The translations under genes were made by a program, and so were the position numbers. The notes beneath the pieces are model-generated. The model was not told where the DNA came from and ran no database searches. It saw only the letters and a list, made by a program, of their open reading frames with translations. A DNA stretch of 64,000 nucleotides from Beijerinckiaceae bacterium (GTDB taxonomy: Bacteria > Pseudomonadota > Alphaproteobacteria > Rhizobiales > Beijerinckiaceae), in assembly GCA_027531565.1 (NCBI GenBank), contig JAPZSB010000007.1, forward strand, positions 682,001 through 746,000, given 5' to 3'. Positions within the stretch are counted from its first letter, which is position 1. Every line of letters begins with the position of its first letter. Positions 12,386 to 33,211 of the stretch are shown piece after piece.

Positions 12386-12425
12386 GACCCCTCCTCGCGC
12401 CCTCCCGGTGACGCGGCCTTTCTGA

Positions 12426-12444: not shown

Positions 12445-12542
12445 TATAGCCTGGTCAAGCGATCCTGCCGGGGCAGGACCGGCAGGCGGTTGACCGGCAG
12501 GCCAGATCAGGCACAAGAGGCGGGATCCCGTTCCGAGGCCCC

Positions 12543-13070: not shown

Positions 13071-13082
13071 CAAACTCCAAGG

Positions 13083-13101
13083 TCGTCATATCCTATAACG
13101 A
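13083..13101. promoter_or_regulatory. Candidate MarR operator 2
   Basis: TCGTCAT-ATCCT-ATAACGA, with the same arms and spacing as operator 1, lies between the MarR stop and the DctP start (39 bases upstream of the DctP ATG). Its presence implies that the transporter receptor gene has its own promoter in the same regulon. Confidence 0.7.
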
Positions 13102-13139
13102 AATAGCCGGCACAAGCCGCATTCGGAGGGAGGACGACC

Positions 13140-17470: not shown

Positions 17471-18061
17471 ATGTCGAGAGAAGCCCCCCGCCCCATCCAG
17501 TCCATCGCCGTGTTCTGCGGCTCGAATACCGGCCTCGGCGAGACCTATATCGAGGCCGCGAGGGCCCTTGGCCAGGCAATCGGCACACGCGGGCTGACCC
17601 TCGTCTACGGCGGCACCAACAAGGGGCTGATGGGCCTGCTCGCCGATGCCACCCGCGCGGCAGGGGGGCGGACACATGGCGTGATCACGCAGCGCCTCGC
17701 CGATCGCGGCCACATGCACCCGGAGCTGGATGCCGGCGAAATCGTCGGCTCGATGCGGGCGCGGAAGGCGCGCATGGCCGAGCTGGCCGATGCTTTCATC
17801 GCCCTGCCCGGCGGGATCGGGACGCTCGAGGAGTTCATGGAGATCTGGACGCTGAACCAGCTCGGCGAGATCGACAAGCCGGCCGGCCTGCTCGATGTGG
17901 CGGGCTATTACCAGCCCTTCCTCGCCTTCATCGACCACATGATCGGCCAGCGTTTCCTGCCGCCGGAACATCGCAACGGCATCGTGGTCGAGCCCGAGCC
18001 GGGATTGCTGATCGACGGGCTGATCCGGTTCGAGAAGGTCACGGTTCCGAAGTGGATGTGA
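17471..18061 (+). CDS. LOG-family cytokinin riboside 5'-monophosphate phosphoribohydrolase
   Basis: 196-residue Rossmann-like protein of the TIGR00730 family, which hydrolyses nucleoside 5'-monophosphates such as AMP or cytokinin nucleotides to base and ribose 5-phosphate. Diagnostic are YGGTNKGLMG (about residue 45), the Arg-Lys pair MRARKARM and the PGGIGTLEEF motif near residue 115. The ATG at 17471 was preferred over an upstream TTG because SIAVFCGSNTG then sits at the usual position. Its end overlaps the convergent LysR gene by 23 bases. In many bacteria the true substrate is AMP; no cytokinin pathway is visible here. Confidence 0.92.
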   Translation: MSREAPRPIQSIAVFCGSNTGLGETYIEAARALGQAIGTRGLTLVYGGTNKGLMGLLADATRAAGGRTHGVITQRLADRGHMHPELDAGEIVGSMRARKARMAELADAFIALPGGIGTLEEFMEIWTLNQLGEIDKPAGLLDVAGYYQPFLAFIDHMIGQRFLPPEHRNGIVVEPEPGLLIDGLIRFEKVTVPKWM

Positions 18062-18962
18062 CCGGCGGGCCGGTGAACCGGCGGGCGAGCTGCTCGGCGA
18101 ATTTCGCAGCCGCCACCGGCAGGGCCCGGCCGCGGAGCTGCCCCATCGCCAGCCGCGCGGGCGGCATGTCGCGCAGGTCGACCGGGCGCGAGACAAGGCC
18201 ATGCCGTTCCTTCAGCGTGGCCGGCGCACCCACCTCGATCTGGAACGTGATGGCTGGCTCGAACCGGACATAGTTGCGCAGGAACTCGAAGGAATTCGAT
18301 TCGACCACTGCCTCGAACCGGAACGAACTCCGCGCCGTGGCCTCGTCCAGCAGCTGGCGCCCGCTATAGCTCCGATCCGGCAGGGCCAGCGGATAGACCG
18401 CGCAATCCCGCAACCGGAGGTTGCTCTGCCCGGCCAGGGGGTGATCGGCAGCCATGATCGCCACGACCCGCTGCTCGGCGGAAGCGAGAACCTGGAAATC
18501 CGCCATGACCGAAGGTCGGAACACCATGGCCAGATCGACCTCGAACTCGGCCAGCGCCCGCAGCGCATCGGCATGGTCCCGGACCTTCACGTTGAATTCG
18601 ACCAGCGGAAATTCATGCCGGTAGGCCGCAATGACGCTCGGCAGCAGCTCATAGGCCAAGGCCTGGCTGCAGGCGATCGACACCGTCCCGCGCCGGAAGC
18701 CGGAGAGATCCTCGATCTGCGAGCGGACGCGGCTCATGTCGGCCAACTGCGTCCGGATATGTCGGATCAGCAGCTCGCCGGCCGCATTGAGCCGGACACC
18801 GCGGGGCAGGCGTTCGAAAATCGGCGTGCCCAGCTCCTCCTCGATATCCTGGATGCGCCGGTTGAGCGCCGAGGCCGTGAGGTTGAGCCGCTCCGCCGCG
18901 CGCCGGATCGAACCGACCCGGGCCACCTCGTCGACGTAGTTCAGGAGGCGCAGATGCTTCAC
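18039..18962 (-). CDS. LysR-family regulator, probable activator of the cyclic-amide operon
   Basis: 307 residues: an N-terminal winged helix (residues 1-60, HTH at GSIRRAAERLNLTASALNRRIQ) and a periplasmic-binding-like effector domain (about 90-295). It is divergently transcribed from the receptor gene at 19069 with 106 bases between start codons, the classical arrangement for control of the neighbouring operon. Effector unknown, expected to be the transported compound or an intermediate. Confidence 0.9.
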   Translation of the reverse strand: MKHLRLLNYVDEVARVGSIRRAAERLNLTASALNRRIQDIEEELGTPIFERLPRGVRLNAAGELLIRHIRTQLADMSRVRSQIEDLSGFRRGTVSIACSQALAYELLPSVIAAYRHEFPLVEFNVKVRDHADALRALAEFEVDLAMVFRPSVMADFQVLASAEQRVVAIMAADHPLAGQSNLRLRDCAVYPLALPDRSYSGRQLLDEATARSSFRFEAVVESNSFEFLRNYVRFEPAITFQIEVGAPATLKERHGLVSRPVDLRDMPPARLAMGQLRGRALPVAAAKFAEQLARRFTGPPVTSTSEP

Positions 18963-19068
18963 AACCAGCTGCTCCTAGTGGTGCTTTTTTCGAACAGGTC
19001 TGGCAAGAAATAAGCAGAAGACGGCATCGGTCAACTGGCTGTAGCGTCCCCTCCGGTCTGAACAGGGG

Positions 19069-20142
19069 ATGGCTGACATGAAATCGGACACGGCAGGACG
19101 GATTTCGCGACGGACTTTCGGCCTCGGTCTTGGCGGTGCGGCATTGGCTGCCGGCCTGTCCCGACCGGCGCTCGCGCAATCCCTCACCAAGCTGAAAATG
19201 GTCCTGAACTGGCGCTACCAGGGGCCTCAGGGCTGGTTTTTCCTCGCCGAGGATCGCGGCTATTTCCGCGAAGCCGGGCTCGAGATCACGATGGATCAGG
19301 GGAATGGCTCCGGCGCCGCGGTCGGCGCGGTCGCCTCGGGCTCCTACGATCTCGGCTTCGGCGACATCAATGCGCTGATCCAGCTGGTGGCGAAGGGTCC
19401 GGCGGGCGGCAACACGCCGCTGGCGATTTCGGCACTCTACAACCGGCCGCCCTTCACCATCGCGGTGAAGGCGGATGGCCCGATCAAGACGCCGAAGGAT
19501 TTCGAGGGCCGCACGCTCGGCGGGCCGGCGAATGACGGCGCGCTGAAACTCTTCCCGGCCTTCGCCAAGCAGGTCGGCATCAACCTCGCCAAGGTGCAGA
19601 TCACCAACATGCAGCCGAACCTCCGTGAACAGATGCTCCAGCGCGGCCAGGTGGATGGCGTGTTCGGCTTCGTCAACACGATCCGCTTCTCGGCCAAGCT
19701 GGTCGGCATCAACCCGGACAAGGATTTCCGGTTCATCAATTATGGCGATTTCGGCATGGATCTCTATTCCAACGCGGTCATTGCCTCGCGGAAGCTGGTC
19801 AACGAGAACCCGGGCGCGTTGAAAGGACTGCTCGCGGCGATCAACAAGGGCCTGAAGGACACGCTGAAGGACCCCGATGCCGCGGTCGAGGCCGTGGCCA
19901 AGCGCGAACCGCTGATCAACAAGGTCGTCGAGAAGGAGCGCCTGCTTGCGACGCTGGCGGATGAGATGAGCCATCCCGAACTCCTAAAGCTGGGCCTTGG
20001 CGAAATCGACGATGCCCGTTTCGCCAAATCCATCGGGATTGTCGTCGAGGCGGATGGCCTGCCACGCAGCCCGGCGCCGGGCGAGATCTTCAGCCGCGCC
20101 TACCTGCCGCCAGCGGCTGACCGCATCACCAAGCTGATCTGA
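19069..20142 (+). CDS. ABC transporter receptor, NMT1/THI5-like (NitT/TauT class), Tat-exported
   Basis: 357-residue periplasmic receptor. Tat signal ISRRTFGLGLGG with an Ala-rich core ends near ALAQS (about residue 36). The mature part has the family start LNWRYQGPQGWFFLAEDRGYF and the segment GDINALIQL. First gene of the LysR-controlled operon. It is clearly paralogous to the receptor at 24119 (shared W-x-YQG, DQGxGS, ASGxYDxGFGD-type blocks) but uses Tat rather than Sec export. Family members bind pyrimidine-like or other small nitrogenous ligands. An in-frame ATG at 19078 is an alternative start. Confidence 0.9.
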   Translation: MADMKSDTAGRISRRTFGLGLGGAALAAGLSRPALAQSLTKLKMVLNWRYQGPQGWFFLAEDRGYFREAGLEITMDQGNGSGAAVGAVASGSYDLGFGDINALIQLVAKGPAGGNTPLAISALYNRPPFTIAVKADGPIKTPKDFEGRTLGGPANDGALKLFPAFAKQVGINLAKVQITNMQPNLREQMLQRGQVDGVFGFVNTIRFSAKLVGINPDKDFRFINYGDFGMDLYSNAVIASRKLVNENPGALKGLLAAINKGLKDTLKDPDAAVEAVAKREPLINKVVEKERLLATLADEMSHPELLKLGLGEIDDARFAKSIGIVVEADGLPRSPAPGEIFSRAYLPPAADRITKLI

Positions 20143-20157
20143 GCCGGAAGCGCGATC

Positions 20158-20952
20158 ATGGACCTGAAACTGAAAGACCGGGTGGTGGTCATCACCGGCC
20201 CCGCCAAGGGCATGGGCGCAGCCATCACCCGCGCCTTCGCTGCGGAAGGCAGCCGGCTGGCGCTGCTCGGGCGGGACATCGCCGCCATCGAGCCGGTTGC
20301 CGCCGATGTGCGGGCGAGGGGCGCCGAAGCGATCGTGATCGCCTGCGACATCACGAAGGGCGCGGAATGCGATGCGGCGATCGCGGAGACGAAGGCAGCC
20401 TATGGCGGGCGTGTCGATGTGCTGGTCAATGTGGCCGGTGGCTCCGGCCCGATCGGCAAGACGGGCTGGGAGACGACGGAAGCCGAATTCGACGAGATCG
20501 TCGATCTCAATATGCGCGGCTGCTTCAACACGATGCGGGCCTGCCTGCCGACGATGATCGACCAGCGCGATGGCAAGATCGTCAATGTGGGCGGAACCTT
20601 CGGGATGCGCGGCCGCGCTGGCCGCATGGCCTATTCCGCCTCGAAATGGGGCCTGCGCGGCATCACCAAGAGCTTCGCGCTGGAAGCGGGGCCTTACAAT
20701 ATCAACGTGAATTGCGTTGCGCCCGGCATGGTCGACGGCCCGCGCTTCCGCGGCAAGGTCGTGCCGGAAATGGCGGCGCGGCTGGGGATCACGGAAGAGC
20801 AGGCGGTCCAGAAGCATGCGGCCGACTATGCGCTGCGCCGCGTCTCGACCGACGAGGACGTGGCCCATGCCTGCCTGTTCCTTGCCTCCGAGGTTTCCCG
20901 CCAGATCAGCGGCGTCGACCTGCCGGTCGATGGCGGCTGGGCCATGCTGTGA
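20158..20952 (+). CDS. SDR-family oxidoreductase in the cyclic-amide operon
   Basis: 264-residue short-chain dehydrogenase with TGPAKGMG in place of TGxxxGxG (residues 12-19), NVAGGSG, a catalytic Tyr-Lys in YSASKWG and the C-terminal DVAHACLFLASEVSRQISG typical of classical SDRs. The catalytic Ser position reads NVGGTFG (Gly-Thr instead of Ser), a departure to note. Arg after the second strand (LLGRD) favours NADP(H). It is 15 bases after the receptor gene and 7 before the dihydroorotase-like gene. Role likely reduction or oxidation of a pathway intermediate. Confidence 0.87.
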   Translation: MDLKLKDRVVVITGPAKGMGAAITRAFAAEGSRLALLGRDIAAIEPVAADVRARGAEAIVIACDITKGAECDAAIAETKAAYGGRVDVLVNVAGGSGPIGKTGWETTEAEFDEIVDLNMRGCFNTMRACLPTMIDQRDGKIVNVGGTFGMRGRAGRMAYSASKWGLRGITKSFALEAGPYNINVNCVAPGMVDGPRFRGKVVPEMAARLGITEEQAVQKHAADYALRRVSTDEDVAHACLFLASEVSRQISGVDLPVDGGWAML

Positions 20953-20959
20953 GGCTGCG

Positions 20960-22414
20960 ATGAGCACGGAACCCTTCCTGGCCGATCTCGTCCTGACCGG
21001 CGGCACCATTGTCAACGGCATGACGCGCTACCGCGCCGATATCGCCATCAAGGACGGCCTGATCGCGCTGGTCGGCGAGCCCGGGGCCATGCCGGCGGCC
21101 CGCGAGGTTGTCGATGTGAGCGGGAAATTCCTGCTGCCGGGCGCGATCGATGTGCATGTCCATTTTCGCGAGCCGGGCTACACCCACAAGGAAGACTGGC
21201 GGACCGGCAGCGCCGCCGCCGCGATGGGCGGGACAACAACCGTCTTCGAGATGCCGAACACCCATCCGCCGACGCGCTCGGTCAAGGAGTTGCGCCAGAA
21301 GCAGGAGGCGGCCGGGAAGTCGCATGTCGATTTCGGCATTTACGGCCTGCTCGCCGAGGACAATATCGACGAGCTGCAGGGGCTGATCGATGGCGGCGTG
21401 AACGCTTTCAAGTGCTTCATGGGCAACACCTTCGGCAACCTGCCCTCGCCCTCGACGGGGGCCATGCTCGAAGGCTTCGAGATCATCGCGCCGTCCGGAC
21501 TGCGGATCTCGCTCCATGCCGAGACGGCCTCGATCATGGCCTGGCGCCAGAAAAGGCTGATGGAAGCCGGGCGGAACGACCCACTCGCCCATATTGCCGC
21601 CCGGCCTGCCATCGTGGCGGCAGAGGCGGTGAGCCGCGCGGCGGAACTCGCCGAATGGACCGGCGCGCGGGTCCATGTTCTTCATATTTCCTCGGCGGCG
21701 GAGTTGCGCCCGCTGGCTGATGCCAAGGCACGCGGTGTCGAGATCACCGGCGAGACCTGCCCCTGCTACCTGCTGCTCGACAGCCGCGACTATGCGCGGC
21801 TCGGCTCGGTGATCCGCGTCAACCCGCCGGTGCGGGAGGCGAGCGATTCCGCCGCGATCTGGCAGGCGCTGCAGAGCGGCGTTGTCGACATGATCGCCAC
21901 CGACCATGCACCGCACACGCCGGAAGAAAAGACGAAGGCGGTGATCTGGGAGGCGGATTGCGGCTTCCCCGGCGTCGAGACGCAGATGCCGCTGATGCTG
22001 AACGAAGTGGCAAAGGGGCGCATCACGCTTGAGCATTATGTGAAAATCTCGGCCGAGAACCCGGCCCGGGCCTTCGGCCTCTGGCCGGCCAAGGGGCGGA
22101 TCGAAGCCGGCGCCCATGCGGATATCGCCGTGGTCGATCTCGAGCGGACCGAGACGATCAGGGCCGCCGGACTGCATTCGCGCGGCAAGATCACCCCGTT
22201 CGAAGGGGTCGAGGTGACGGGCCTTCCCATCCATACGCTGGTCCGCGGGCGTTTCGTCCAGCGCGACCGCCGCCTCGTCGAGGAAACCAGCGGCTGGGGC
22301 CGGCAGGTCACCGGTATCCAGCGGATGCCGCCGGCCCGCCCGCGCAACATTGACCAGACCTTGGCCGCAGTCTTGCGAGGGCCAGTCAGGACCAGCCCGG
22401 GAGGCGCCTCATGA
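20960..22414 (+). CDS. Dihydroorotase/allantoinase-like cyclic amidohydrolase 1
   Basis: 484-residue binuclear-metal hydrolase of the hydantoinase-dihydroorotase-allantoinase group. Visible metal ligands are HVHFRE (about residues 64-66), the Lys expected to be carbamylated in NAFKCFMG, His in LHAET, His in VLHISS and Asp in ATDHAPH. The usual TCPHY is TCPCY here, a departure from the paralogue at 29077. The ATG at 20960 follows the SDR stop by 7 bases, and its end overlaps the ATPase start (ATGA). It likely opens a cyclic ureide or imide ring; the true ring is unknown, and a role in pyrimidine biosynthesis is unlikely given the context. Confidence 0.9.
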   Translation: MSTEPFLADLVLTGGTIVNGMTRYRADIAIKDGLIALVGEPGAMPAAREVVDVSGKFLLPGAIDVHVHFREPGYTHKEDWRTGSAAAAMGGTTTVFEMPNTHPPTRSVKELRQKQEAAGKSHVDFGIYGLLAEDNIDELQGLIDGGVNAFKCFMGNTFGNLPSPSTGAMLEGFEIIAPSGLRISLHAETASIMAWRQKRLMEAGRNDPLAHIAARPAIVAAEAVSRAAELAEWTGARVHVLHISSAAELRPLADAKARGVEITGETCPCYLLLDSRDYARLGSVIRVNPPVREASDSAAIWQALQSGVVDMIATDHAPHTPEEKTKAVIWEADCGFPGVETQMPLMLNEVAKGRITLEHYVKISAENPARAFGLWPAKGRIEAGAHADIAVVDLERTETIRAAGLHSRGKITPFEGVEVTGLPIHTLVRGRFVQRDRRLVEETSGWGRQVTGIQRMPPARPRNIDQTLAAVLRGPVRTSPGGAS

Positions 22415-23283
22415 ATGCCCAGCTCCGACCCGCCGAAGCCGGCGGCGGGGCGGTTCCGACCGCCCCGTTCATCGAATTCGAGAATGCCTCGATCACCTAT
22501 GGCAAGGGCGCGCGCGCCGTGCAGGCGCTGGCCCCGACCTCGCTGAAGATCGCCGAGGGTGAGTTCGTGGCGCTGGTCGGGCCATCCGGCTGCGGCAAGT
22601 CAACCATCCTGAAAATGGTCGGCGAGTTGCTGAAGCCGAGCACGGGCTTCGTCTTCGTGGCCGGGCGAGAGATCGGTGCGAACCCGATCCGGATCGGCAT
22701 GGCCTACCAGAACCCGACCCTGCTGCCATGGCTCAATATCCGCGACAACGTGATGTTGCCGCTGAAGATCGTGCCGCCTTTCCGGCAGGGCTTCCGGGCC
22801 AAGCGCAACAGCGAGTTCCGGGACCGGGTCGAGACCCTGCTGAAGCAGGTCGGGCTGGCCGGCTTCGCCGAAAAATTCCCGTTCCAGCTTTCCGGCGGGA
22901 TGATGCAGCGCGCCAATCTCTGCCGTGCCCTCGTGCATGACCCCGACCTGCTGCTGCTCGACGAGCCGTTCGGTGCGCTGGACCAGTTCACCCGCGAGGA
23001 GCTCTGGGCGGTCATGCAGGATCTCTGGCTGTCGAAGAAGCTGACGGTCATCCTCGTCACGCATGACCTGCGCGAGGCGGCCTATCTCGCCAGCCGGATC
23101 TGCGTGATGAGCGCGCGGCCGGGCCGGATCCTGGACGACCAGATCGTCGAGCTTCCGCGCCCGCGCACGATCGACATGACCTTCCAGCCCGATTTCGTCG
23201 AACTGAACCAGAAGCTGCGCGCGATGATCGTCGGCGCGCGGGGCGGGACCGGCATTGTCAGCCATCCGCCCGGCGCGGCCTGA
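22411..23283 (+). CDS. ABC transporter ATPase (NitT/TauT class)
   Basis: 290-residue nucleotide-binding subunit energising uptake. Walker A GPSGCGKST (about residues 56-64), Q-loop in AYQNPTLLPW, signature LSGGMMQR (about 165), Walker B LLLLDEPFGALD and switch His in LVTHDLREA. Start overlaps the preceding stop by four bases, implying translational coupling. It serves a single permease gene downstream, so the functional transporter is a homodimer of both subunits. N-terminal 25 residues are a low-complexity extension. Confidence 0.94.
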   Translation: MNAQLRPAEAGGGAVPTAPFIEFENASITYGKGARAVQALAPTSLKIAEGEFVALVGPSGCGKSTILKMVGELLKPSTGFVFVAGREIGANPIRIGMAYQNPTLLPWLNIRDNVMLPLKIVPPFRQGFRAKRNSEFRDRVETLLKQVGLAGFAEKFPFQLSGGMMQRANLCRALVHDPDLLLLDEPFGALDQFTREELWAVMQDLWLSKKLTVILVTHDLREAAYLASRICVMSARPGRILDDQIVELPRPRTIDMTFQPDFVELNQKLRAMIVGARGGTGIVSHPPGAA

Positions 23284-23294
23284 GGAGGAACCCG

Positions 23295-24077
23295 ATGGAA
23301 CGGATTCTCGACACCCTGCGGGAGAAAGGCGCCTCGACCGCGCTGATCCTCGGCTTTTTCGTGGCCTGGGAGCTGTTCTGCCTCGTGGCGAACATCTCCG
23401 ACATCCTGCTGCCACGCCCGACCCAGATCGTGGCGGCGCTGGTGAAATTCTGGCCGGCGATCTGGCCGCATACCTACCAGACGCTCTACACCACGCTGGT
23501 CGGGTTCAGCATCGGCGTCGTGATCGGGCTGTTCCTCGGCGTGCTGATCGGCTCGTCCAGGCTCGCCTACGACACCGCCTACCCGCTGCTGGTCGGGTTC
23601 TCGTCGATCCCCAAGGTCGCGGTCGTGCCGATCTTCGTGCTCTGGTACGGGGCGGGCACGGTGCCGGCCATCCTCACCGCGATGATCATCTGCATCTTCC
23701 CGATCGTGGTGAATGTCGCCACCGGGATCGCCACGGTCGAGCCCGAACTCGAGGATGTGATGAAGACGCTGAAGGCGTCGAAGCTCGACATTCTCTGGAA
23801 TGTCAGCCTGCCGCGCTCGATGCCCTATTTCTTCGCCGCACTGAAAGTGGCGATCACCCTCGCCTTCGTCGGCTCGGTCGTGGCCGAGACCGTCGCCTCG
23901 AACCGGGGCATCGGCAACATGATGATGATCGCCTCGTCGAGCTTCAACGTGCCTCTGGTCTTTGCCGGCCTGTTCGTTCTCGCGGGGCTGGGCGTCACGC
24001 TCTACGTCCTGTTCTCGCTGATCGAACACCGCGTCACCGGTTGGGCCCACCGAAAGACCGATCTCGCCTCCCCCTGA
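23295..24077 (+). CDS. ABC transporter permease (NitT/TauT class)
   Basis: 260-residue inner-membrane permease with about six helices. The cytoplasmic EAA-type loop is seen at ELEDVMKTLKASKLDILWNVSLP (about residues 150-172), where it contacts the ATPase. Eleven bases after the ATPase gene with AGGAGG upstream. Homologous to SsuC/TauC/ThiX-type permeases. Forms the channel for ligands delivered by one or both receptors of the operon. Confidence 0.93.
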   Translation: MERILDTLREKGASTALILGFFVAWELFCLVANISDILLPRPTQIVAALVKFWPAIWPHTYQTLYTTLVGFSIGVVIGLFLGVLIGSSRLAYDTAYPLLVGFSSIPKVAVVPIFVLWYGAGTVPAILTAMIICIFPIVVNVATGIATVEPELEDVMKTLKASKLDILWNVSLPRSMPYFFAALKVAITLAFVGSVVAETVASNRGIGNMMMIASSSFNVPLVFAGLFVLAGLGVTLYVLFSLIEHRVTGWAHRKTDLASP

Positions 24078-24118
24078 AAGACCTCGCCCTCTCTCCCACC
24101 TGATCCAAGGAGATTTCC

Positions 24119-25162
24119 ATGCGTCGCCTTTTCCTCAAGACCGCCCTTGCAACCCTCGCCGCTGCCACCTTCGGGCTCGCCGCACCGGCCGTGGCCCAGA
24201 GCCCGACCAAGATCCGCTTCACGCTCGACTGGAAATACCAGGGCGTCCATTCGTGGTATTTCTATGCCAAGGAGAAGGGCTATTTCGCCGCCGAAGGCCT
24301 CGATGTCACGATCGATCAGGGCGAAGGCTCGGCCGCCACTGTCACGCGGATCATGTCCGGCGCCTATGATGCCGGGTTCGGTGACATGAACGCCATCATC
24401 CAGCAGGCCGTGAACAAGCCGGGCGAAGCGCCGGTCATGGTCTACATGATCTACAACAAGGCGCCCTTCGCGATCATCCACAAGGCCGACAGCCCGATCA
24501 AGACGCTGAAGGACCTCGAAGGCCGCAAGCTGACCTCGCCGGCCGGCTCGGCCACGCACCGGCTTTTCCCGATCTTCGCCAAGCTGAACGGGCTCGATGC
24601 GAGCAAGGTCGAGGTGGTGAATATCGCCCCGTCGGTCCAGGAGATGATGATGGTGCAGGGCCAGGTCGATGGTGGCTTCGTCTTCACCGTGACCTCCTAC
24701 ATGAACCTGATCGGCATGCGGCTGAACCCGGACAAGGACTACAAGTTCATCATGTATTCCGATCACGGCATCGAGGCCTATTCGAACGGCGTGATGGTGT
24801 CGCAGAAGATGATCCGCGAGAATCCGAAGGCCGTGGCCGGGCTGGTACGCGCCGTGAACCGCGCGATGCTCGAACTGACCGCGAACCCGGCCGAAGCCGG
24901 CAAGGTGATGGCCCGGGTCGAGCCGACGGTGAACCCGGAGATCGAAGCGAAGCGCGTCGAGTTCACCTATCGCGCGCATATGTTCACGCCGGAAACCGAC
25001 AGGATCGGCGCGGGCGACGTTTCCGACGAGCGGATGGGCAAGGCGATCGCGCAGATCGTCGAGGCCTTCGGCCTGCCCAAGGCGCCGACCATGGCGGAAG
25101 TGTTCAACCGTTCCTTCCTGCCGCCGCTGGCCGAGCGCAAGCTCGCCGCCCCGAAGAGCTGA
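24119..25162 (+). CDS. ABC transporter receptor, second paralogue, Sec-exported
   Basis: 347-residue NMT1/THI5-like receptor with a Sec signal peptide (residues 1-27, [19 protein letters not shown]; no twin Arg). Mature start [21 protein letters not shown] closely parallels the receptor at 19069. AAGGAG lies just upstream of the ATG. Having two receptors for one permease and ATPase suggests two related ligands or high- and low-affinity capture. The gene separates transporter genes from the second block of hydrolases. Confidence 0.92.
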
Positions 25163-25171
25163 GGTCGGGGG

Positions 25172-26620
25172 ATGCCGGCCATGGCTGCCCCGCGCGAGAT
25201 TGCCGCCCGCCACGGGGTCGACGCACGGGGCGGCTTTGCTGACCGCCGGCTGATACTGGCGGAGGGGCGGATCCAGGCCATCGACGCCGCACCGGAAACG
25301 CCGGCGGATATCGTTGTCCTCCCGGCTCTGGCCAATGCGCATGACCATGCCCGGCCACTCCGTACGAGCTCGATCGGCGGCTTCGGCAGGCCGCTGGAAA
25401 TCTGGCTGCACCGGCTGGCGCTGATGGTGCCGGTCGAGCCCTACCTCGCCGCGGTGGCGCCGCTCGCCCGGGCGGCGCTGGGCGGGCAGGGCAGCGTCAT
25501 GGTCCATGCCACGCGGGCGATGGGCCTGACCGACCTGCCGACCGAGGCCCGGGAGATTGCCCGCGCTGCCCGGGATGTCGGCGTGCGGATCGCCTACGGG
25601 ATCGGCCTGCGCGACCAGAACCCGCTTGTCTATGGGGATCCTGCCGGCGTGCTGGGCGCCCTCGGCCCGGCTGAACGCGAGGCCATCGGCCAGCGCTTCC
25701 TCGGGCCGGTACCTCCGATCGGCGAGCAGCTTGCCCAGGTCGATGCCGTGGCCGAAGCGGTCGGCGGGCCGATGGTCGATGTGCAATACGGGCCGAACGG
25801 GCCACAATGGTGTTCCGAGGCGATGTGGGAAGCCATTGCCGAAGCGTCCGCCCGCACGGGCCGGCGCGTGACCACGCATCTCTTCGAGACGAAATACCAG
25901 CGGGAATGGGCCGACCGGAACTATCCCGGCGGGCTTGTCCGGCGCTGGAAGGAGATCGGCCTGCTCTCGCCGCGGCTGACCGTGGCGCATTGCGTCTGGG
26001 CACGGCCGGACGAGCTGGAGATGATCGCCGAGGCCGGCTGTGTCATCGCCACCAACGCCTCCTCGAACCTTGCCCTGCGCTCCGGGATTGCCCCGGTGGC
26101 GGAGATGCTCCGGCGCGGCTGCCGTGTGGCGCTTGGCATAGACGGGCAGGCCTTCGACGAGGATGACGACGCCCTGCGCGAGATGCGGCTGCTCTGGTCG
26201 CTCCATGCGGGATGGGGTTTTGACACGGAACTGGCCCCGGCCGATATCCTGCGGATGGCGCTCGAGAATGGCCGCATCGCCATCGGCGCGCCGGAGGGCG
26301 GCGTGCTCGCCGAAGGTGCTGCCGCCGATCTCGTGCTGGTCGACCGGGCGGCACTCGATGACGATGCGCTGATGCCGGTCGATCCGCTCGACCTGATGTT
26401 CGCGCGGGCCAACCGCAGCCATATCCGCGAGGTGATCGTGGCCGGGCGCACCATCGTCAGCCGCGGCCGCGTGGTCGGGGTGGATCTCGAGGCTGCGCAT
26501 CGGGAACTTCGCGCGGCCTATCGTGCGGGCATGGCCAGCCGTCAGGAATTTGCCGCCGCCCTGCCCGCCTTCGAGACGGCCGTGCGGGGGCATTACCTGC
26601 AGCGCCTCGGTTGCTGCTGA
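25172..26620 (+). CDS. Amidohydrolase, ATZ/TRZ-cytosine-deaminase-like
   Basis: 482-residue hydrolase or deaminase of the amidohydrolase superfamily, mononuclear-metal type. Ligands seen: HDH in ANAHDHARPL (about residues 55-57, in place of HxH), His in TTHLFETKY, His in VAHCVWARPDE and Asp in LGIDGQAFDEDDDAL. NASSNLALRSGIAP is the typical deaminase substrate loop. It starts 10 bases after the receptor gene (alternative ATG at 25181). Likely deaminates or hydrolyses a ring C-N bond of the imported compound. It belongs to a different branch from the two dihydroorotase-like enzymes in this operon. Confidence 0.88.
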   Translation: MPAMAAPREIAARHGVDARGGFADRRLILAEGRIQAIDAAPETPADIVVLPALANAHDHARPLRTSSIGGFGRPLEIWLHRLALMVPVEPYLAAVAPLARAALGGQGSVMVHATRAMGLTDLPTEAREIARAARDVGVRIAYGIGLRDQNPLVYGDPAGVLGALGPAEREAIGQRFLGPVPPIGEQLAQVDAVAEAVGGPMVDVQYGPNGPQWCSEAMWEAIAEASARTGRRVTTHLFETKYQREWADRNYPGGLVRRWKEIGLLSPRLTVAHCVWARPDELEMIAEAGCVIATNASSNLALRSGIAPVAEMLRRGCRVALGIDGQAFDEDDDALREMRLLWSLHAGWGFDTELAPADILRMALENGRIAIGAPEGGVLAEGAAADLVLVDRAALDDDALMPVDPLDLMFARANRSHIREVIVAGRTIVSRGRVVGVDLEAAHRELRAAYRAGMASRQEFAAALPAFETAVRGHYLQRLGCC

Positions 26621-26624
26621 GCCG

Positions 26625-27629
26625 ATGCTGTTCCTGGGCGAGGCGGATATCGAGGCGCTGATTACCCTGCCCGATGCGATGGCCTGTGCTGCGCTGGCCT
26701 TCCGCCTCCATGCCACAGGCGAAGCCGCCGCACCGGTGCGCGGCGATCTCCGGCACGGCACCCCGAAGGCGGGGTGCCTGATGCTTGGCGGCGCGCGCGG
26801 GGCGGAGGCGCTCACGATCAAGAGCAATGTCCACGCCTATCCCGACGGACCGGAGGCCCCGCGCCTCTGGGGCAGCCTGCTGACCTTGTGGGACTGGCGG
26901 CGGGCGGAACCGATGGCGTTGATGGCGGCGCGGGCCTTCAACGACCATCGCACAGCGGCGGGGTTTGCCGTCGGCGCGGACAGGCTCGCCGCGCCGGATG
27001 CCGGAATCCTTGCCCTGTTCGGCGCCGGCAAGAGCGCGCCTCTGACCCTGCGTTACCTCAAGGCCGTGCGGCCTTCGATCCGCGAGATCCGGCTGGCCGG
27101 GCGCTCGCCGGAACGTGTCGAGGCGCTGGCCCGGCAGGCGGCGCTCTGGCCTGATCTCGCCGATACCCGGATTGTCTGCGCGGACTCGCCGGAGGCGACC
27201 GTCGCCGGTGCGGATCTCATTGCCACGGTCACGACCTCGGACCAGCCGGTCTTTCCCGGCGCGGCGGTCAAGCCGGGCGCCTGCATCGTGCTGGGCGGGG
27301 CCAATCGCCCGGAGGCCCGCGAGGCCGATGACGCGCTGATGCGGCGCGCCGATCTCTATGTCGATGCGCGGCAGGGCGCGACGGAAAAGGCCGGCGATCT
27401 CCGGCTCGCCCTCGCCAGCGGGGCGCTCGTTCCGGAGCGGATCCGGGCCGAGATCGGCGCCGTGCCGGCGGGCGGGCTGCCGCTCTCGGCCGCGAGCGAT
27501 GTCCGCGTGTTCAAGTCGATGGGCCTCGCCATTCAGGATGTGGTTCTGGCCGAGCATCTGGCCGCCCGGGCCAAGGCGGAAGGGCGCGGCCTGCGGCTCG
27601 ACCTTGGAGCCGGAGGAACCCGGCCATGA
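26625..27629 (+). CDS. Ornithine cyclodeaminase/mu-crystallin family protein
   Basis: 334-residue NAD(P)-binding protein starting MLFLGEADIEALITLPDAM. The Rossmann motif LFGAGKSAPLTL lies near residue 130 and the family C-terminal hallmark VFKSMGLAIQDVV near residue 300; the conserved Lys region (TIKSNVHAY) is also present. Members act as cyclodeaminases or, more often, as imine reductases (ketimine, pyrroline). In this operon a cyclic imine or dehydroamino intermediate is plausible. Spaced 4 bases from the previous gene and overlapping the next start (ATGA). Confidence 0.9.
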   Translation: MLFLGEADIEALITLPDAMACAALAFRLHATGEAAAPVRGDLRHGTPKAGCLMLGGARGAEALTIKSNVHAYPDGPEAPRLWGSLLTLWDWRRAEPMALMAARAFNDHRTAAGFAVGADRLAAPDAGILALFGAGKSAPLTLRYLKAVRPSIREIRLAGRSPERVEALARQAALWPDLADTRIVCADSPEATVAGADLIATVTTSDQPVFPGAAVKPGACIVLGGANRPEAREADDALMRRADLYVDARQGATEKAGDLRLALASGALVPERIRAEIGAVPAGGLPLSAASDVRVFKSMGLAIQDVVLAEHLAARAKAEGRGLRLDLGAGGTRP

Positions 27630-29080
27630 TGAACGGCGGGACCGTGCTGATCCGGCAGGCGATGATCCTGACCCTCGATGCGGAGGAGAGAATCCTCGAC
27701 AGCGGCGACATCCTGATCCGCGACGGGGTGATCGAGGCGGTCGGGTTGGTTCCTGCCGAGGCCGCCGGGGCAGCGCATCGGGTGATCGAGGCGCGCGGCC
27801 TGCTGGCTGTCCCCGGGCTGGTCAACGCGCATATGCATTCACAATCCGGCACGATGGCCGGGTTCGGAGACCGTCTCAGCCACCCCGCCTTCATGTGGCT
27901 GACGCAGGCCCATACGTCGCGCCGGACACCGGACGAGATCCGTCTCGCCGTTCTGCTCTGCGCTGCGCAGATGCTGCAGAGCGGCACCACGGCGGCGATC
28001 GACCATTTCCCCGGCCAGCGCTTCACCGTGGCGGATATGGATGCGGTGCTTGCGGCCTGGGCGGAAACCGGGATGCGGGCGACACTCGGCATGCGGTTCT
28101 TCGACGGGGAATTCGGCGATATCGTGCCGGCCGGCGCCGGGCTGCCGCCCGAACTGGCCGCGGCTGCCGCTTCGGTCGACATCCTCAGGCCGCATCCCCT
28201 CGAGGCGTTACGCGAGGAGATGCCGGAGATCATCACGCGCTGGCATGGCCATGCCGGCCGGATCGGCGTCTTTCCCGCGCCCTCCAACCCGGATCGCTGC
28301 AGCGACGGGGCGCTGGTCTTCTGTGCCGAACTCGCCGAGCAGCACGATCTCGGCATCCATACCCACCTGCTCGAAACGCGGGCGCAGGCGGCGATTGCCG
28401 CGAAGCGCTATGGCACCACCACCGTCGAACATCTCGACCGGCTTGGCGTGCTGTCCGGCCGCTGGTCCTGCGCACATTGCAACTGGCTGACCGATGCCGA
28501 TATTGCCCGGATGGCCGGGCATGGCGTGGTGGCCGTCCACAATCCGGAGAGCAATGCCCGGATCGGCGCCGGCCGGATGCGGACGCCCGACATGCTGGCG
28601 GCCGGCGTACCGATCGCGCTCGGCACGGATGGCTCCGGCGCCAATGACAACCTGCTCCTGCAGGAGGCGATGCGGGCGGCTGCCCTGCTCCACCGGGCCG
28701 ACCTGCCCGATCGCACGCGCTGGGTCAGCGCGCGGGATGCGTTGCGCATGGCCACGGAAGGCGGCGCGAAGGCGCTCCGGCTCGAAGGCCGGATCGGCCG
28801 GATCGCGCCGGGCTGGAAAGCCGATCTGGCACTGTACCGGCTCGACCGGCCCTGGTGGGTGCCGGTGAATGACCCGGTGGCGCAACTCGTCTTTGCCGAG
28901 ACCGGCGCGGCGGTCTCGCATGTACTGGTCGATGGTCGGGTGCTTGTCGAGGACGGGCGGATCACGACCTTCGATGCCACCGGCGCGATGGGCGAGATCC
29001 GCGACCGGATGGCCGTGATGCGTCGGCGCAATGCCGATCTCTTCGCCGTGGCCGAGGCGATCGCGAGGGCCATCCCGTGA
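27626..29080 (+). CDS. Amidohydrolase, S-adenosylhomocysteine/atrazine-type deaminase-like
   Basis: 484-residue metal hydrolase of the TrzN/MtaD group. HMH in VNAHMHSQSG (about residues 68-70), His in THLLETRAQ, His in SCAHCNWLTD, then NPESNARIGAGRM and Asp in LGTDGSGANDN are the expected active-site elements; the C-terminal composite beta domain (APGWKADLALYRL) follows. It overlaps the OCD-like gene by four bases and is overlapped by the next gene. A dechlorination, deamination or hydrolysis of an N-heterocycle is the family chemistry; substrate unknown. Confidence 0.9.
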   Translation: MMNGGTVLIRQAMILTLDAEERILDSGDILIRDGVIEAVGLVPAEAAGAAHRVIEARGLLAVPGLVNAHMHSQSGTMAGFGDRLSHPAFMWLTQAHTSRRTPDEIRLAVLLCAAQMLQSGTTAAIDHFPGQRFTVADMDAVLAAWAETGMRATLGMRFFDGEFGDIVPAGAGLPPELAAAAASVDILRPHPLEALREEMPEIITRWHGHAGRIGVFPAPSNPDRCSDGALVFCAELAEQHDLGIHTHLLETRAQAAIAAKRYGTTTVEHLDRLGVLSGRWSCAHCNWLTDADIARMAGHGVVAVHNPESNARIGAGRMRTPDMLAAGVPIALGTDGSGANDNLLLQEAMRAAALLHRADLPDRTRWVSARDALRMATEGGAKALRLEGRIGRIAPGWKADLALYRLDRPWWVPVNDPVAQLVFAETGAAVSHVLVDGRVLVEDGRITTFDATGAMGEIRDRMAVMRRRNADLFAVAEAIARAIP

Positions 29081-30450
29081 TGCGCGGTCTTGTCGATCTT
29101 GTCCTCGCCGGCGGTACCCTTGCAACGCCGGAGGGTCTCAAGCCCGGCGCTGTTGCCGTCAAGGACGGGCGGATCGTCGCCCTCGGCAGCGATGCGGCCA
29201 TGCCTCCGGCGCGCGAGGTCGTCGATGTGACGGGGCGCCATGTCATCCCCGGTGCGATCGACGTTCATGTCCATTTCCGCGAGCCGGGCTTCTCCTACAA
29301 GGAGACCTGGACCAGTGCCACACAGGCCGCCGCGATCGGCGGTGTGACCACCGTGTTCGACATGCCGAACACCAATCCGCCGACAGCCGATGCGGGGGCT
29401 GTCCGCGCCAAACTGACCCTCGCCTCGGCGCAGGCTTTCGTCGATTTCGGTGTCTACGGTTATATCGGCGAGAACAATCTCGACCAGCTCGCGCCGATGG
29501 CCGAGGCCGGGTCGGTGGCGTTCAAGCTCTATCTCGGCAGCGACAACCCGCTCGTGCCCTGCCCGAATGACGGCGCGGTGCTCGATGCGCTGGCCATCCT
29601 CGCCGAACTCGGCATCCGCTGCACCGTTCATGCAGAGAACACGCCGATCCTTGGCTGGCGGGGCGCGAAGCTGAAGGCCGAGGGACGGCGTGACCTCGCC
29701 GCCCATCTCGAACAGCATGCCGATATCGCGACGGTGGAGGCGGTATCGCGGATCGCGCTCTTTTCCGAATGGACGGGCTGCCCGATCCATATCGCGCATG
29801 AGAATTGCCGGCACTCCCTGCCGCTGATCGCCGCGGCGAAGAAGCGGGGCGTGGACATCACCGCCGAGACCTGCCCGCATTACCTCTATCTCAGCATGGA
29901 GGATGCGCCCCGGGCCGGCGAACTCGCCTTGCGGGTGAAGCCGCCTGTGCGCGAAGCCGGCCATGCCGGACCGCTCTGGGACGCCTTGCTCAACGGGGTG
30001 ATCGACATGATCTCGACTGACCACGCCCCCCATGCGCCTGCAGAGAAACAGCGCAGCTCGATCTGGGAGGTAGCGCCCGGCTTTCCCGGGGTGGAGACCT
30101 CGATGCGGCTGATGCTGAATGCCGTGAACGAGGGCCGGATGGGCCTGCCGGATTATGTGCGGATGGCCTGCGAGGCGCCGGCGCGTGCCTTCGGCCTGTT
30201 CCCGCGGAAGGGCACGCTCCAGCCCGGGGCCGATGCCGATCTCGTGGTGATCGACATGGATCGGGAAGGCGTGATCCGCGGTGAGGACCTCCATTCCCTC
30301 GGGAATGTGACGCCGTTCGAGGGTTTCCGGACGCGCGGATTGCCGGTCATGACCTTCCTGCGGGGCCGGCTGGTGGCGAAGGACGGGCGGATCGTCGCCA
30401 ATCCGGGCATCGGCCAGCCCGTCCGGCCCCACCGCCTCAGGGGCGGCTGA
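29077..30450 (+). CDS. Dihydroorotase/allantoinase-like cyclic amidohydrolase 2
   Basis: 457-residue paralogue of the enzyme at 20960. It keeps all expected elements: HVHFRE (residues 61-66), carbamylated-Lys candidate in AFKLYLG, VHAEN, IHIAHEN, TCPHY and STDHAPHAP. The starts of the two enzymes share long identical runs (REVVDV, PGAIDVHVHFREPG), showing duplication of a common ancestor. Last gene of the operon; its stop overlaps the convergent DUF1850 gene by 14 bases. It would act on a second ring or a later intermediate than paralogue 1. Confidence 0.9.
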   Translation: MMRGLVDLVLAGGTLATPEGLKPGAVAVKDGRIVALGSDAAMPPAREVVDVTGRHVIPGAIDVHVHFREPGFSYKETWTSATQAAAIGGVTTVFDMPNTNPPTADAGAVRAKLTLASAQAFVDFGVYGYIGENNLDQLAPMAEAGSVAFKLYLGSDNPLVPCPNDGAVLDALAILAELGIRCTVHAENTPILGWRGAKLKAEGRRDLAAHLEQHADIATVEAVSRIALFSEWTGCPIHIAHENCRHSLPLIAAAKKRGVDITAETCPHYLYLSMEDAPRAGELALRVKPPVREAGHAGPLWDALLNGVIDMISTDHAPHAPAEKQRSSIWEVAPGFPGVETSMRLMLNAVNEGRMGLPDYVRMACEAPARAFGLFPRKGTLQPGADADLVVIDMDREGVIRGEDLHSLGNVTPFEGFRTRGLPVMTFLRGRLVAKDGRIVANPGIGQPVRPHRLRGG

Positions 30451-30808
30451 GCCCGGGGCAAGGCGCGAGATCAACGGGGCCGCCGGCCGCCTTGCCGAGG
30501 CTCCGGCATTGGCCCGCCACACAGAGGCGCCAGCCGGAGCCGGTCGCACCCGAGGCAGCCAGCATCAGGCGGCTTTCGCTCCGTTCGGGTTTCCAGACAT
30601 ACCAGCCATCGACGCGACGCGCCTCCGGAGGCGGCTCCATGCCGGCGCCGGAGCCTTTCACGCGGGCCTGTTCGAGCACGAGGCGCGGGCCATCGATGCG
30701 CCAGGTTTCCTCCCATTCGACCTTCTCGACCGAATGCGTCCAGCCGAGGGTGAAGAGCGGCGCCGCGAGGGCCATCACCTTCCCCGAGACGAGCAGGCAG
30801 GCACCCAC
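30437..30808 (-). CDS. DUF1850 protein of the TAXI-TRAP transporter
   Basis: 123-residue small exported or membrane-anchored protein with an N-terminal hydrophobic segment (residues 3-20). Its middle has the DUF1850 pattern FTLGWTHSVEKVEWEETW and the later LASGATGSGWRLC-type region. DUF1850 proteins are found almost only beside fused TRAP permeases and TAXI receptors. It follows the permease gene by 10 bases. Function unknown, probably a small accessory subunit. Its 3' end overlaps the convergent amidohydrolase by 14 bases. Confidence 0.85.
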   Translation of the reverse strand: MGACLLVSGKVMALAAPLFTLGWTHSVEKVEWEETWRIDGPRLVLEQARVKGSGAGMEPPPEARRVDGWYVWKPERSESRLMLAASGATGSGWRLCVAGQCRSLGKAAGGPVDLAPCPGLSRP

Positions 30809-30818
30809 GCGGCAGCCG

Positions 30819-33116
30819 TCAGGCCGGCACGGCGCGGTTCTGCCGCGCCCGCCAGAGGTGATGGCCGATCACGAGGGCAGCCAGGCCGACACCGAGTTCA
30901 TCGGTTACCGGCAGGGCCACAACGAGCAGGGCGGCCGCAATCACCGCAACGACACGTTCCCAGGCAGCCATGCTCCGCTGGAGGTAGCCGGTAAAGGCCG
31001 CGCCCCAGAGGATGATGGCCAGCGTGGCCTTGAAGACGATCCAGCCCACCGCCACCAGATAGGCGGCCCCCGTCACGCCCTTGACGGGCTGGAGCATCAG
31101 GGCCGGATCGTAAACGGCCATATAGGGGATGATGAACCCGGCAATCGCGATCTTCACCGCCTCGACCCCGATCCGCATCCCGCTTTCCCGGGCGATCGGC
31201 GCGGCAGCAAAGGCAGCCAGCGCGACCGGCGGGGTGAGATCCGCCATGATGCCGAAATAGAAGACGAACATGTGGCTGACGATCAGCGGAACGCCGAGTT
31301 CGAGCAGGATCGGCGCCGCGATCGATGACGTGATGATGTAATTCGGGATGGTCGGGATGCCCATGCCGAGCACAAGGCTGACGATCATGGTCAGGACCAG
31401 CGCGGCGAGGAGGCTTTTCTGCCCGACGGAGACCACCGCCGTGCCGAGAATGGTGCCCACGCCGGTCAGCGTCATGGTGCCGATGACGATGCCGACCACG
31501 GCACAGGCGACACCGACAGGAATAGCCTGGCGGGCGCCGTCAGCCAGCGAATCCCGGCAGATGGCGAGGGCCTCGCGGCCGCCATGGCTGACAAGGTTCC
31601 AGAGGACCAGCGTCACCACGAGGCCGACGATCACCATGATCCCGTACCAGAAGAAGGTCGCGCAGAGCAGGCCGAGCGCAACCCAGAACAGGATGCGGAT
31701 TGTCGGCTGCGTGATGCCGAGCGTGGCCGAGGCGCCGAGGATCAGCAGCACGGTCAGCGCGAGGCCGATCGAGCCGGAGAAAAGCGGCGTGAACCCGGCA
31801 AAGAGCAGGTAAACCAGCACGGCCAGCGGCAGGATGAGATACCATTTCGCCCTGAGGGCCTTGGCCGGGCTCGGCAGTTCATCCCGCGCCATGCCGACGA
31901 GGCCGCGCTTGCCCGCCTCGAGATGAACGGCGAGGAAGGCCGCGAAATAGTAGAGCAGGGCCGGCACGATGGCGGCCTTGACGATCTCGGCATAGGGAAC
32001 ATCGATGGTTTCCGCCATGATGAACGCCACCGCACCCATGACAGGCGGCATGATCTGCCCGCCCATCGAGGCCGTGGCCTCGACGCCGCCGGCAAAGGCC
32101 GCGCGGTAGCCGAAGCGCTTCATCAGCGGAATCGTGAACTGCCCGGTCGAGACGACATTGGCGACGCCGGACCCGGAAATCGTGCCCATCAGCGCGGACG
32201 AGAACACCGCCACCTTGGCCGGGCCGCCGCGCGCCGCGCCGAACAGGCCCATTGCCACATCGGTGAAGAGCTGGATCATGCCGGCGCGTTCGAGGAAGGC
32301 TCCGAACAGGATGAACAGGAAGATGAACGTGGCCGAGACGCCGGTCGGTGTCGAATAGATGCCCTCGGTACCATAGGCCATCTGGTCGATCACCTGTTCG
32401 AGGCTGTAGCCGCGATGATCGAGCGGCGCGGGCAGGTAATTGCCGAACAGGGCATAGGCCAGGAACAGCCCGGAGACGATCGGCAGGGCCGGGCCCATGA
32501 ACCGCCAGGCCAGGACGAAGAGCGCGATGAGGACAATGATCCCGAGCGCGACATCAAGGCCATTCAGCGACCCCGTGCGCAGCAGGAGGTCCGCATAGAA
32601 GAACCATTGATAGAGCGCGACGCCGATGCCGACGAGGATGATCCCGAGGCTGGTGGCCTTCTGCAGCGGCGTCGCCGAGCGATGAACGAGCAGCAGCCCG
32701 CCGGCCACGGTCATCAGGAAGCCGACATGCAGGGCCCGGAGGACCTGGTTGGGGACCGAGCCATCGAACCGTGCCAGAAGCTCGATCACGATGGCGAGCG
32801 GCAGCCATGCCAGCAGACCAGGCAGGGCCGGCTTGCCCTGAACCTTCCCGACAAGGATCCAGCCGAGCCAGCCCAGCATCAGCCCGCGCAGCAGGGCGAT
32901 ATAGGAGACGAGCCCGCCGATGCGCGAATCGAGCGGGAGGTTGAAGGCCGTGGCCAGCTGGAAGACCGAGAAGGCGAACGCCGTCCAGAACAGGAGATGG
33001 CCGGTCAGCCCCGGGCCGAACCCCGCCGGGAGCCCGTGTTCAGGATCGACAACCGGCGCAGGGGCAGGCGGCTGGCCTTCGGAAGCGGCGGAATTCGGGT
33101 TCAGCGCAGTCGACAT
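30819..33116 (-). CDS. TRAP transporter 4TM/12TM fusion permease
   Basis: 765-residue membrane protein fusing the small (DctQ-like) and large (DctM-like) TRAP subunits, typical of TAXI systems. About 16 or more hydrophobic segments are visible. Landmarks include GTEGIYSTPTGVSATFIFLFILFG split by charged ends, the GSGVANVVSTGQFTIP loop (about residue 320) and MGIPTIPNYIITS (about 600). The start MSTALNPNS at 33116 was preferred because of AAGGTGCG upstream and because the extension to 33188 lacks support. Lies between the TAXI receptor and DUF1850. Ion-coupled uptake, probably of an organic acid. Confidence 0.93.
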   Translation of the reverse strand: MSTALNPNSAASEGQPPAPAPVVDPEHGLPAGFGPGLTGHLLFWTAFAFSVFQLATAFNLPLDSRIGGLVSYIALLRGLMLGWLGWILVGKVQGKPALPGLLAWLPLAIVIELLARFDGSVPNQVLRALHVGFLMTVAGGLLLVHRSATPLQKATSLGIILVGIGVALYQWFFYADLLLRTGSLNGLDVALGIIVLIALFVLAWRFMGPALPIVSGLFLAYALFGNYLPAPLDHRGYSLEQVIDQMAYGTEGIYSTPTGVSATFIFLFILFGAFLERAGMIQLFTDVAMGLFGAARGGPAKVAVFSSALMGTISGSGVANVVSTGQFTIPLMKRFGYRAAFAGGVEATASMGGQIMPPVMGAVAFIMAETIDVPYAEIVKAAIVPALLYYFAAFLAVHLEAGKRGLVGMARDELPSPAKALRAKWYLILPLAVLVYLLFAGFTPLFSGSIGLALTVLLILGASATLGITQPTIRILFWVALGLLCATFFWYGIMVIVGLVVTLVLWNLVSHGGREALAICRDSLADGARQAIPVGVACAVVGIVIGTMTLTGVGTILGTAVVSVGQKSLLAALVLTMIVSLVLGMGIPTIPNYIITSSIAAPILLELGVPLIVSHMFVFYFGIMADLTPPVALAAFAAAPIARESGMRIGVEAVKIAIAGFIIPYMAVYDPALMLQPVKGVTGAAYLVAVGWIVFKATLAIILWGAAFTGYLQRSMAAWERVVAVIAAALLVVALPVTDELGVGLAALVIGHHLWRARQNRAVPA

Positions 33117-33211
33117 GAACGCACCTTGATCAGCAGGCGGGGTTGGCCAGAACGACATGACCGGCCGGAACGAAGCCCGGCCGGTCATGCATCAGCGGAA
33201 AGCTGTTGCCC

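Follow-up and report, generated by a model that had tools for sequence, protein, structure and literature searches.

A conserved operon of a two-receptor ABC importer and four amidohydrolases in a Beijerinckiaceae bacterium, with possible links to cyanuric acid and biuret metabolism

We analyzed a 64-kb stretch of DNA (the window) from the 3.67 Mb genome, in 13 contigs, of a Beijerinckiaceae bacterium. On its plus strand, positions 19069-30450 hold an operon-like run of ten genes, all with intact frames, in the order SBP1, SDR, HYD1, ATPase, permease, SBP2, DEA1, OCD, DEA2 and HYD2. In some relatives the same operon is linked to the cyanuric acid hydrolase gene AtzD or to biuret and allophanate genes, and in sister species of the genus AtzD stands where the window has OCD, DEA2 and HYD2. 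We propose, at a probability of about 45%, that the operon serves to scavenge nitrogen from an s-triazine or oxidised-purine-type ring, by a route that leads into cyanuric acid, biuret and allophanate.

The ten genes are spaced by -4 to +41 bp. The initial annotation had described the ten plus-strand genes correctly and had reported several ATGA overlaps; two of the three 4-base overlaps are ATGA (22411-22414 and 27626-27629), and the third is GTGA (29077-29080). Its family labels agree with Pfam. SBP1 (19069-20142) and SBP2 (24119-25162) are NMT1/THI5-like periplasmic receptors (PF09084, 122.9 and 130 bits against a cut-off of 20.5). They accompany an ABC ATPase (22411-23283, PF00005) and an ABC permease (23295-24077, PF00528). 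The SDR lies at 20158-20952 (PF00106). HYD1 (20960-22414, PF01979) and its 49% identical paralogue HYD2 (29077-30450, GTG start) are dihydroorotase-like amidohydrolases, while DEA1 (25172-26620, PF01979) and DEA2 (27626-29080) are amidohydrolases of the TRZ/ATZ type. OCD (26625-27629) belongs to the ornithine cyclodeaminase/ketimine reductase family (OCD/mu-crystallin; PF02423, 145.4 bits against 24). Among the NCBIfam matches listed, all ten proteins missed the equivalog cut-offs.

To place the operon among relatives, we scanned named genomes for DEA1. The scan gave 410 DEA1 relatives, and the best 80 loci were kept (the named loci), 26 of them shorter than 20 kb. Gene lists of other genomes are approximate, since the codon-usage caller misses or truncates some genes. 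Family matches below 36% identity were mostly left out of the neighbour table, and the 80-locus tallies used further per-gene identity limits.

In 11 of the 80 named loci, DEA1 is followed on its own strand by an AtzD homologue, with 0-109 bp between the two matches. An AtzD-like gene also comes directly after DEA1 in genomes of the same genus as the window (L045-L048 and L057). In Skermanella rosea, DEA1 is followed by a gene annotated as "ring-opening amidohydrolase", an acetamidase/formamidase gene and a DUF3830 gene. A twelfth AtzD locus is that of Methylocapsa (L144), with AtzD 7.9 kb upstream of DEA1. Here, and in L050, genes for a BMP-type transporter, a BiuH-type enzyme, AtzD, a second BiuH-like protein, AtzE and an AtzH-like protein precede DEA1. 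The BMP-BiuH-AtzE-type set also stands beside DEA1 in L125, L128 and L141, with no AtzD match in these loci, and part of the set in L132. In L051, an allophanate hydrolase gene (780.9 bits against 511.05) and an HpxZ/AtzH-like gene adjoin the operon. Altogether, 21/80 named loci carry at least one AtzD, BiuH, BiuH-like, AtzE, AtzH or AtzF homologue. The AtzD copies inside operons scored 545.5-568.6 bits, far above the cut-off of 360 of the cyanuric acid hydrolase model NF052395. The sole copy aligned, from L045, has Arg at position 188, and its best solved relative is the Azorhizobium cyanuric acid hydrolase 4nq3. According to the available part of one paper (PMC4051656), Arg188 of cyanuric acid hydrolase is Gln in barbiturase.

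OCD and AtzD were found at different loci. The full OCD-DEA2-HYD2 set is present in 7/80 named loci, namely L038-L041 of the same genus, Bosea vaviloviae (L097) and two Hyphomicrobiales metagenome-assembled genomes (L095 and L098), and an eighth locus (L094) has OCD at its contig end. These eight OCD loci and the 12 AtzD loci show zero overlap. Within the genus, DEA1 is followed by OCD-DEA2-HYD2 in five genomes (the window genome, G002, G012, G013 and G014) and by AtzD in five others (G003, G004, G005, G008 and G011). All five OCD-DEA2-HYD2 carriers keep AtzD on another contig. The non-overlap and the split within the genus indicate that OCD-DEA2-HYD2 occupies the slot held by AtzD in sister species. 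In G061, of the same family, the run is SBP1-SDR-HYD1-ATPase-permease-SBP2-OCD-DEA2-HYD2 with no DEA1 in the run, so OCD-DEA2-HYD2 is a separable module. In L098, DEA2 is in two pieces (11960-13434), a possible frameshift or pseudogene.

The initial annotation had staked its reading on conserved synteny, and synteny is kept in relatives. Four further members of the genus (L038-L041) have the ten genes in unchanged order, along with the adjoining FMD, LOG and LysR genes. The core of SDR, HYD1, ATPase, permease and DEA1 was found in 36/80 named loci, and ATPase with permease in 60/80. LysR, FMD and LOG were found in 35, 22 and 17 of the 80, respectively, and FMD lies inside the operon in L045, L046, L058 and L059. 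The core operon is also carried by Azospirillum and Skermanella plasmids. Because both order and sequence are conserved, the operon is not a chance array. Across genera its enzymes fall to about 50% identity with the order kept, which speaks for age. A second operon type was seen by eye in L052, L153, L185 and others, with ATPase-permease-SBP2-DEA1 next to a cytosine-deaminase-like amidohydrolase, a DUF4440-like protein and a GntR-like regulator. Homologues of F19amh or F27 occur in 10/80 loci and the regulator in 13/80.

DEA1 and AtzD also occur in the same genomes. Order-level DEA1 matches were split at 580 bits, in the gap between 589.6 and 488.8, which made 34 of 48 genomes orthologue carriers; in the genus count, G006, whose sole match is 28% identical, was placed among the seven genomes without DEA1. 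In the genus, AtzD is present in 10/10 genomes with the DEA1 orthologue and in 0/7 others. Across the order (397 genomes), AtzD exceeded its cut-off in 27/34 DEA1 carriers versus 37/363 other genomes, and, counted by genus, in 11/12 with DEA1 versus 16/129 without. When all 48 genomes with a DEA1 match are taken as carriers, the figures are 35/48 and 29/349, and the 14 dropped genomes alone give 8/14. These counts are of related genomes rather than independent events, and physical adjacency in several genera is stronger evidence than co-occurrence.

In the window genome, the downstream genes lie outside the operon. AtzD is on another contig (C9:101751), in a BMP-transporter cluster with a BiuH gene that scored 421.4 bits against a cut-off of 370. 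An AtzE-family gene (694 bits against 461) lies about 4 kb from this AtzD-BiuH cluster. On contig C4, an allophanate-hydrolase C-terminal domain (PF21986, 160.8 bits against 27) is encoded by a gene separate from the amidase part. The downstream route is thus present in this genome but split. The initial annotation had reported no partner enzymes. This holds for the operon itself, as no urease, carbamoylase or allophanate enzyme was among the families scanned in the ten genes, but not for the rest of the genome nor, as regards AtzD, for the operons of sister species. On C4 (C4:146000-165900, L184), the allophanate hydrolase appears to be divided between two overlapping genes (amidase and AH_C) beside an ABC transporter. 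The same stretch has reaction-centre and bacteriochlorophyll-type genes (by eye), hinting that the window organism is a phototroph.

The catalytic residues of the operon enzymes are intact. In HYD1 and HYD2, the HxH, Lys, His, His and Asp metal ligands together with HxHxR and MPN are kept in all 43 orthologous copies and in the window's two; one of 45 merged matches, shorter than 330 residues, was dropped from this count and a remote match in L153 was set aside. The remote match and the HYD paralogues elsewhere in the window genome differ from this motif set. In dihydroorotases, the Arg of HxHxR and the Asn of MPN hold the substrate carboxylate. Both proteins also pass the dihydroorotase subfamily model TIGR00857 (349.9 and 325.8 bits against 279.05), with no dihydroorotase equivalog cut-off reached among the matches listed. 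As a correction to the label "dihydroorotase/allantoinase-like" of the initial annotation, the allantoinase model TIGR03178 was narrowly missed (351 and 343.8 bits against 357.85) and the dihydropyrimidinase/D-hydantoinase model TIGR02033 was missed as well (332.9 and 306.3 against 393.25). The HxHxR Arg is present in 45/45 copies, whereas Asn or Ser takes its place in the allantoinases 3hm7 and 3e74, and L-hydantoinase has neither motif. An Elioraea metagenome-assembled genome (L156) has four HYD1-like matches in a row, either copies or fragments.

Residue counts for SDR, OCD and DEA1 were taken from copies above set identity and length limits. SDR keeps Tyr-x-x-x-Lys. Alignment to 2et6 puts Gly where the catalytic Ser would be, and this Gly, in a near-invariant stretch before YSASK, is shared by 38/38 copies. 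Some SDRs that lack this Ser reduce C=N bonds, pteridine reductase among them. In OCD, Arg39, Lys66 and Arg109 are kept in 8/8 copies, and a pyrroline-carboxylate reductase has identical residues at the aligned positions; we take them to be a carboxylate-binding set. The family assignment of OCD rests on PF02423 and these residues, and all 14 NCBIfam models that it matched were below cut-off. The HxH motif of DEA1 is kept in 79/79 copies. The Arg and Asn of HYD1 and HYD2 and the Arg/Lys/Arg of OCD suggest carboxylated substrates, and on this sequence evidence HYD1 and HYD2 may act on a carboxylated ring.

From these data we infer the substrates, the order of steps and the regulation as follows. 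The LysR-linked operon would scavenge nitrogen, with two related receptors that deliver a pair of related nitrogen heterocycles to a single ABC importer. SDR would shift the redox state of a carboxylated ring, which HYD1 would open. DEA1 might strip an exocyclic nitrogen group; the ring left over, in the simplest case cyanuric acid, would be opened by AtzD in relatives, and the biuret, AtzE/AtzH and allophanate enzymes would then release ammonia. In the window clade, OCD-DEA2-HYD2 in the AtzD slot would form a second set that deaminates, reduces and opens. The formamidase-family enzyme FMD may clear a small amide. The initial annotation had suggested import and hydrolysis of a nitrogen heterocycle, possibly triazine-like. 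Our sequence comparisons are consistent with such import and hydrolysis, and the linkage to AtzD, biuret and allophanate genes in relatives strengthens "triazine-like". As natural source, an s-triazine or another oxidised-purine product appears likeliest. The neighbourhood of AtzD in G123, with what look by eye like urate and purine genes, agrees with this reading. Oxonate is 5-azaorotate, a urate oxidation product, and might be a fitting substrate for a ketimine-carboxylate reductase and for a ring opener of the dihydroorotase type. A bolder version, which we consider unlikely, is that the operon family is a natural route, older than industry, that leads up to cyanuric acid hydrolase. The operon would import s-triazine carboxylates from urate or guanine oxidation (e.g. 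oxonate), the Ser-less SDR or OCD would reduce a ring C=N, the dihydroorotase-like enzyme would open the ring, and the deaminated ring would pass to cyanuric acid, biuret and allophanate.

Several observations weigh against an s-triazine or oxidised-purine route that ends in cyanuric acid. AtzD is absent from the window operon, and in 59/80 named loci the flanks hold no AtzD-, biuret- or allophanate-pathway gene, although 26 of the 80 loci span less than 20 kb. In the structure comparison, DEA1 is nearer to an MTA/SAH deaminase (88 bits) than to triazine hydrolase (66-68) or AtzA (64). Seven of the 34 DEA1 genomes have no AtzD over the cut-off, although split pieces below the threshold are present in G452, one of the seven; the family and order relatives G030, G056, G061 and G089 have the DEA1 orthologue and no AtzD. 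A control, the common and unrelated hydantoinase family TIGR02033 (265/397 genomes), also tracks AtzD (63/265 versus 1/132), so genome richness inflates the co-occurrence of DEA1 and AtzD. Within the 265 hydantoinase-bearing genomes, DEA1 still makes a difference in favour of the link, with AtzD present in 26/31 genomes that have DEA1 versus 37/234 that do not (overlap counted by eye). In genus g62, DEA1 and AtzD are 19-51 kb apart; three g62 genomes share housekeeping genes in between, so this looks like one inherited layout and was counted as one event. Taking the spacing as one large cluster was rejected, since housekeeping genes intervene. In addition, biuret metabolism seems to be mostly independent of cyanuric acid, as far as the available part of PMC7948467 indicates.

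The alternative that survives best, possible but clearly less probable, is a pathway for pyrimidine or hydantoin carboxylates. Here the rings opened by HYD1 and HYD2 would be hydantoin or dihydroorotate-like, the aminated precursors would be deaminated by DEA1 and DEA2, and AtzD homologues in relatives would have shifted in specificity. The dihydroorotase motifs and the TIGR00857 scores of both HYD proteins agree with this, as do their PDB neighbours, which include L-hydantoinase and allantoinase, and SBP2 is weakly related to the pyrimidine-binding THI5/ThiY. However, a change in AtzD specificity fits poorly with in-operon copies so far above the cyanuric acid hydrolase cut-off and with the Arg188 of the aligned copy, and the BiuH-, AtzE-, AtzH- and AtzF-type neighbours belong to biuret/allophanate chemistry.

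We regard as improbable a salvage of purine or urate nitrogen without a triazine, in which intermediates of the allantoin, ureido or oxidised-guanine type are degraded and AtzD and BiuH are merely co-regulated neighbours. It draws on G123, where 36 kb separate DEA1 from AtzD and BiuH-type genes and the AtzD-BiuH-allophanate-type cluster (L177, G123:C1:214000-233900) adjoins genes resembling those of xanthine dehydrogenase, guanine deaminase, HIU hydrolase and OHCU decarboxylase (by eye). It also draws on the HpxZ/AtzH gene beside the operon in L051, the nearby LOG gene and the top NCBIfam model of DEA2, the 8-oxoguanine deaminase NF006055. DEA2 scored only 265.1 bits on this model, far below the cut-off of 532. 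Moreover, HYD1 and HYD2 lack the allantoinase motif and miss, narrowly, the allantoinase cut-off, and a placement of AtzD directly after DEA1 in 11 loci can hardly be incidental. Plain allantoin degradation ranks low, as do the next two proposals.

A recent herbicide or melamine degradation cluster built from mobile parts is very improbable. Such pathways use TRZ/ATZ-family metalloenzymes and AtzD, according to the part of PMC5806882 available, DEA2 is as near to AtzA (162.2 bits) as to an MTA/SAH deaminase (163.2), and DEA1 relatives are found on 42 plasmid records, including the operon-bearing Azospirillum and Skermanella plasmids. Against this, the order is conserved over genera among enzymes that have diverged widely, and the closest relative of DEA1 is neither AtzA nor TrzN. 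Least probable of all is thiamine-pyrimidine salvage, suggested by the two NMT1/THI5-like receptors and by the PDB matches of SBP2 to THI5, THI13 and ThiY, as these matches are weak (36-41 bits), the best one (4nmy, 64 bits) has no named ligand, and family scans of the ten proteins identified no thiamine gene.

LysR, LOG and FMD genes adjoin the operon and were missing from the inventory of the initial annotation. FMD (16415-17356, minus strand) lies outside the window operon and belongs to the acetamidase/formamidase family (PF03069, 125.8 bits against 27), but is far below the cut-off of the formamidase model FmdA NF045496 (74.5 against 500). LOG (17471-18061, plus strand) resembles cytokinin riboside 5'-monophosphate phosphoribohydrolase (TIGR00730, 168.4 bits against 96.35). 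The LysR-type regulator (18039-18962, minus strand; PF00126 and PF03466) is divergent from the operon, and the region between them (18963-19068) is by its position a likely promoter/operator. In 19 kb scanned, three sigma-70-like sites were found versus 1.9 expected, none of them within 18963-19068. Downstream on the minus strand, a DUF1850 gene (30437-30808, family scan) lies between the operon end and the TRAP genes, which by open reading frames are a TRAP fused permease (30819-33188) and a TAXI receptor gene, both convergent and outside the operon. The TRAP fused permease is 63% identical in L038/L041 (G014 and G012) versus 81-100% for the other genes compared, which suggests local gene replacement. 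In L205 and L206, DEA2 relatives (47-48% identical) adjoin creatininase-like and glutamine synthetase-like genes (by eye), possibly another N-heterocycle context.

Cyanuric acid hydrolases form an isolated enzyme family, and the natural source of cyanuric acid is unclear. Through a conserved operon that encodes an importer and upstream enzymes, the purpose of these hydrolases becomes directly testable. All of its enzyme families are already known; the two receptors, the unusual SDR and the dihydroorotase-like hydrolases are also objects of study in themselves. A literature search over titles and abstract openings, with most subscription papers outside it, found no described operon of this kind and no mention of DUF3830.

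We compared the operon with known systems. As to the dihydroorotase/allantoinase/hydantoinase family, HYD1 and HYD2 share its fold and metal-ligand set and have HxHxR and MPN as in dihydroorotases. They differ in missing the equivalog cut-offs among the matches listed and in their catabolic context, and the genome has a separate dihydroorotase-like gene. The atrazine upper pathway (AtzA/AtzB/AtzC, TrzN) likewise places amidohydrolase-fold enzymes upstream of AtzD, and DEA2 is as near to AtzA as to an MTA/SAH deaminase. DEA1, in contrast, is nearer to an MTA/SAH deaminase, and the cut-off of 609 bits of the N-ethylammeline chlorohydrolase model is not reached by DEA1 (137.7) or DEA2 (256.6). 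Among the matches listed (23 of 23 for DEA1, 25 of 54 for DEA2), no model bore the name AtzA, AtzB, AtzC or TrzN. With the triuret hydrolase (TrtA)/biuret pathway, as described in the available part of PMC7948467, the window-genome AtzD cluster and L125, L128 and L141 share the pairing of BiuH with a second BiuH-like gene. The second gene of the window genome, in the AtzD cluster, scored 250.8 bits, below the BiuH cut-off of 370, and is a candidate TrtA only. The closest comparison is with the cyanuric acid-biuret clusters, AtzD-BiuH of Rhizobium leguminosarum 3841 (PMC5806882) and atzDGEHF of Pseudomonas ADP (PMC6219798). The available parts of these papers mention no set in which SDR, OCD and dihydroorotase-like hydrolases accompany an NMT1-type importer with two receptors, and, unlike in these clusters, AtzD of the window clade is outside the operon. 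On the other hand, AtzD-, BiuH-, AtzE-, AtzH- and AtzF-type homologues are all represented in the DEA1 loci of relatives, and the window genome itself has AtzD, BiuH, AtzE-type and allophanate-hydrolase-type genes.

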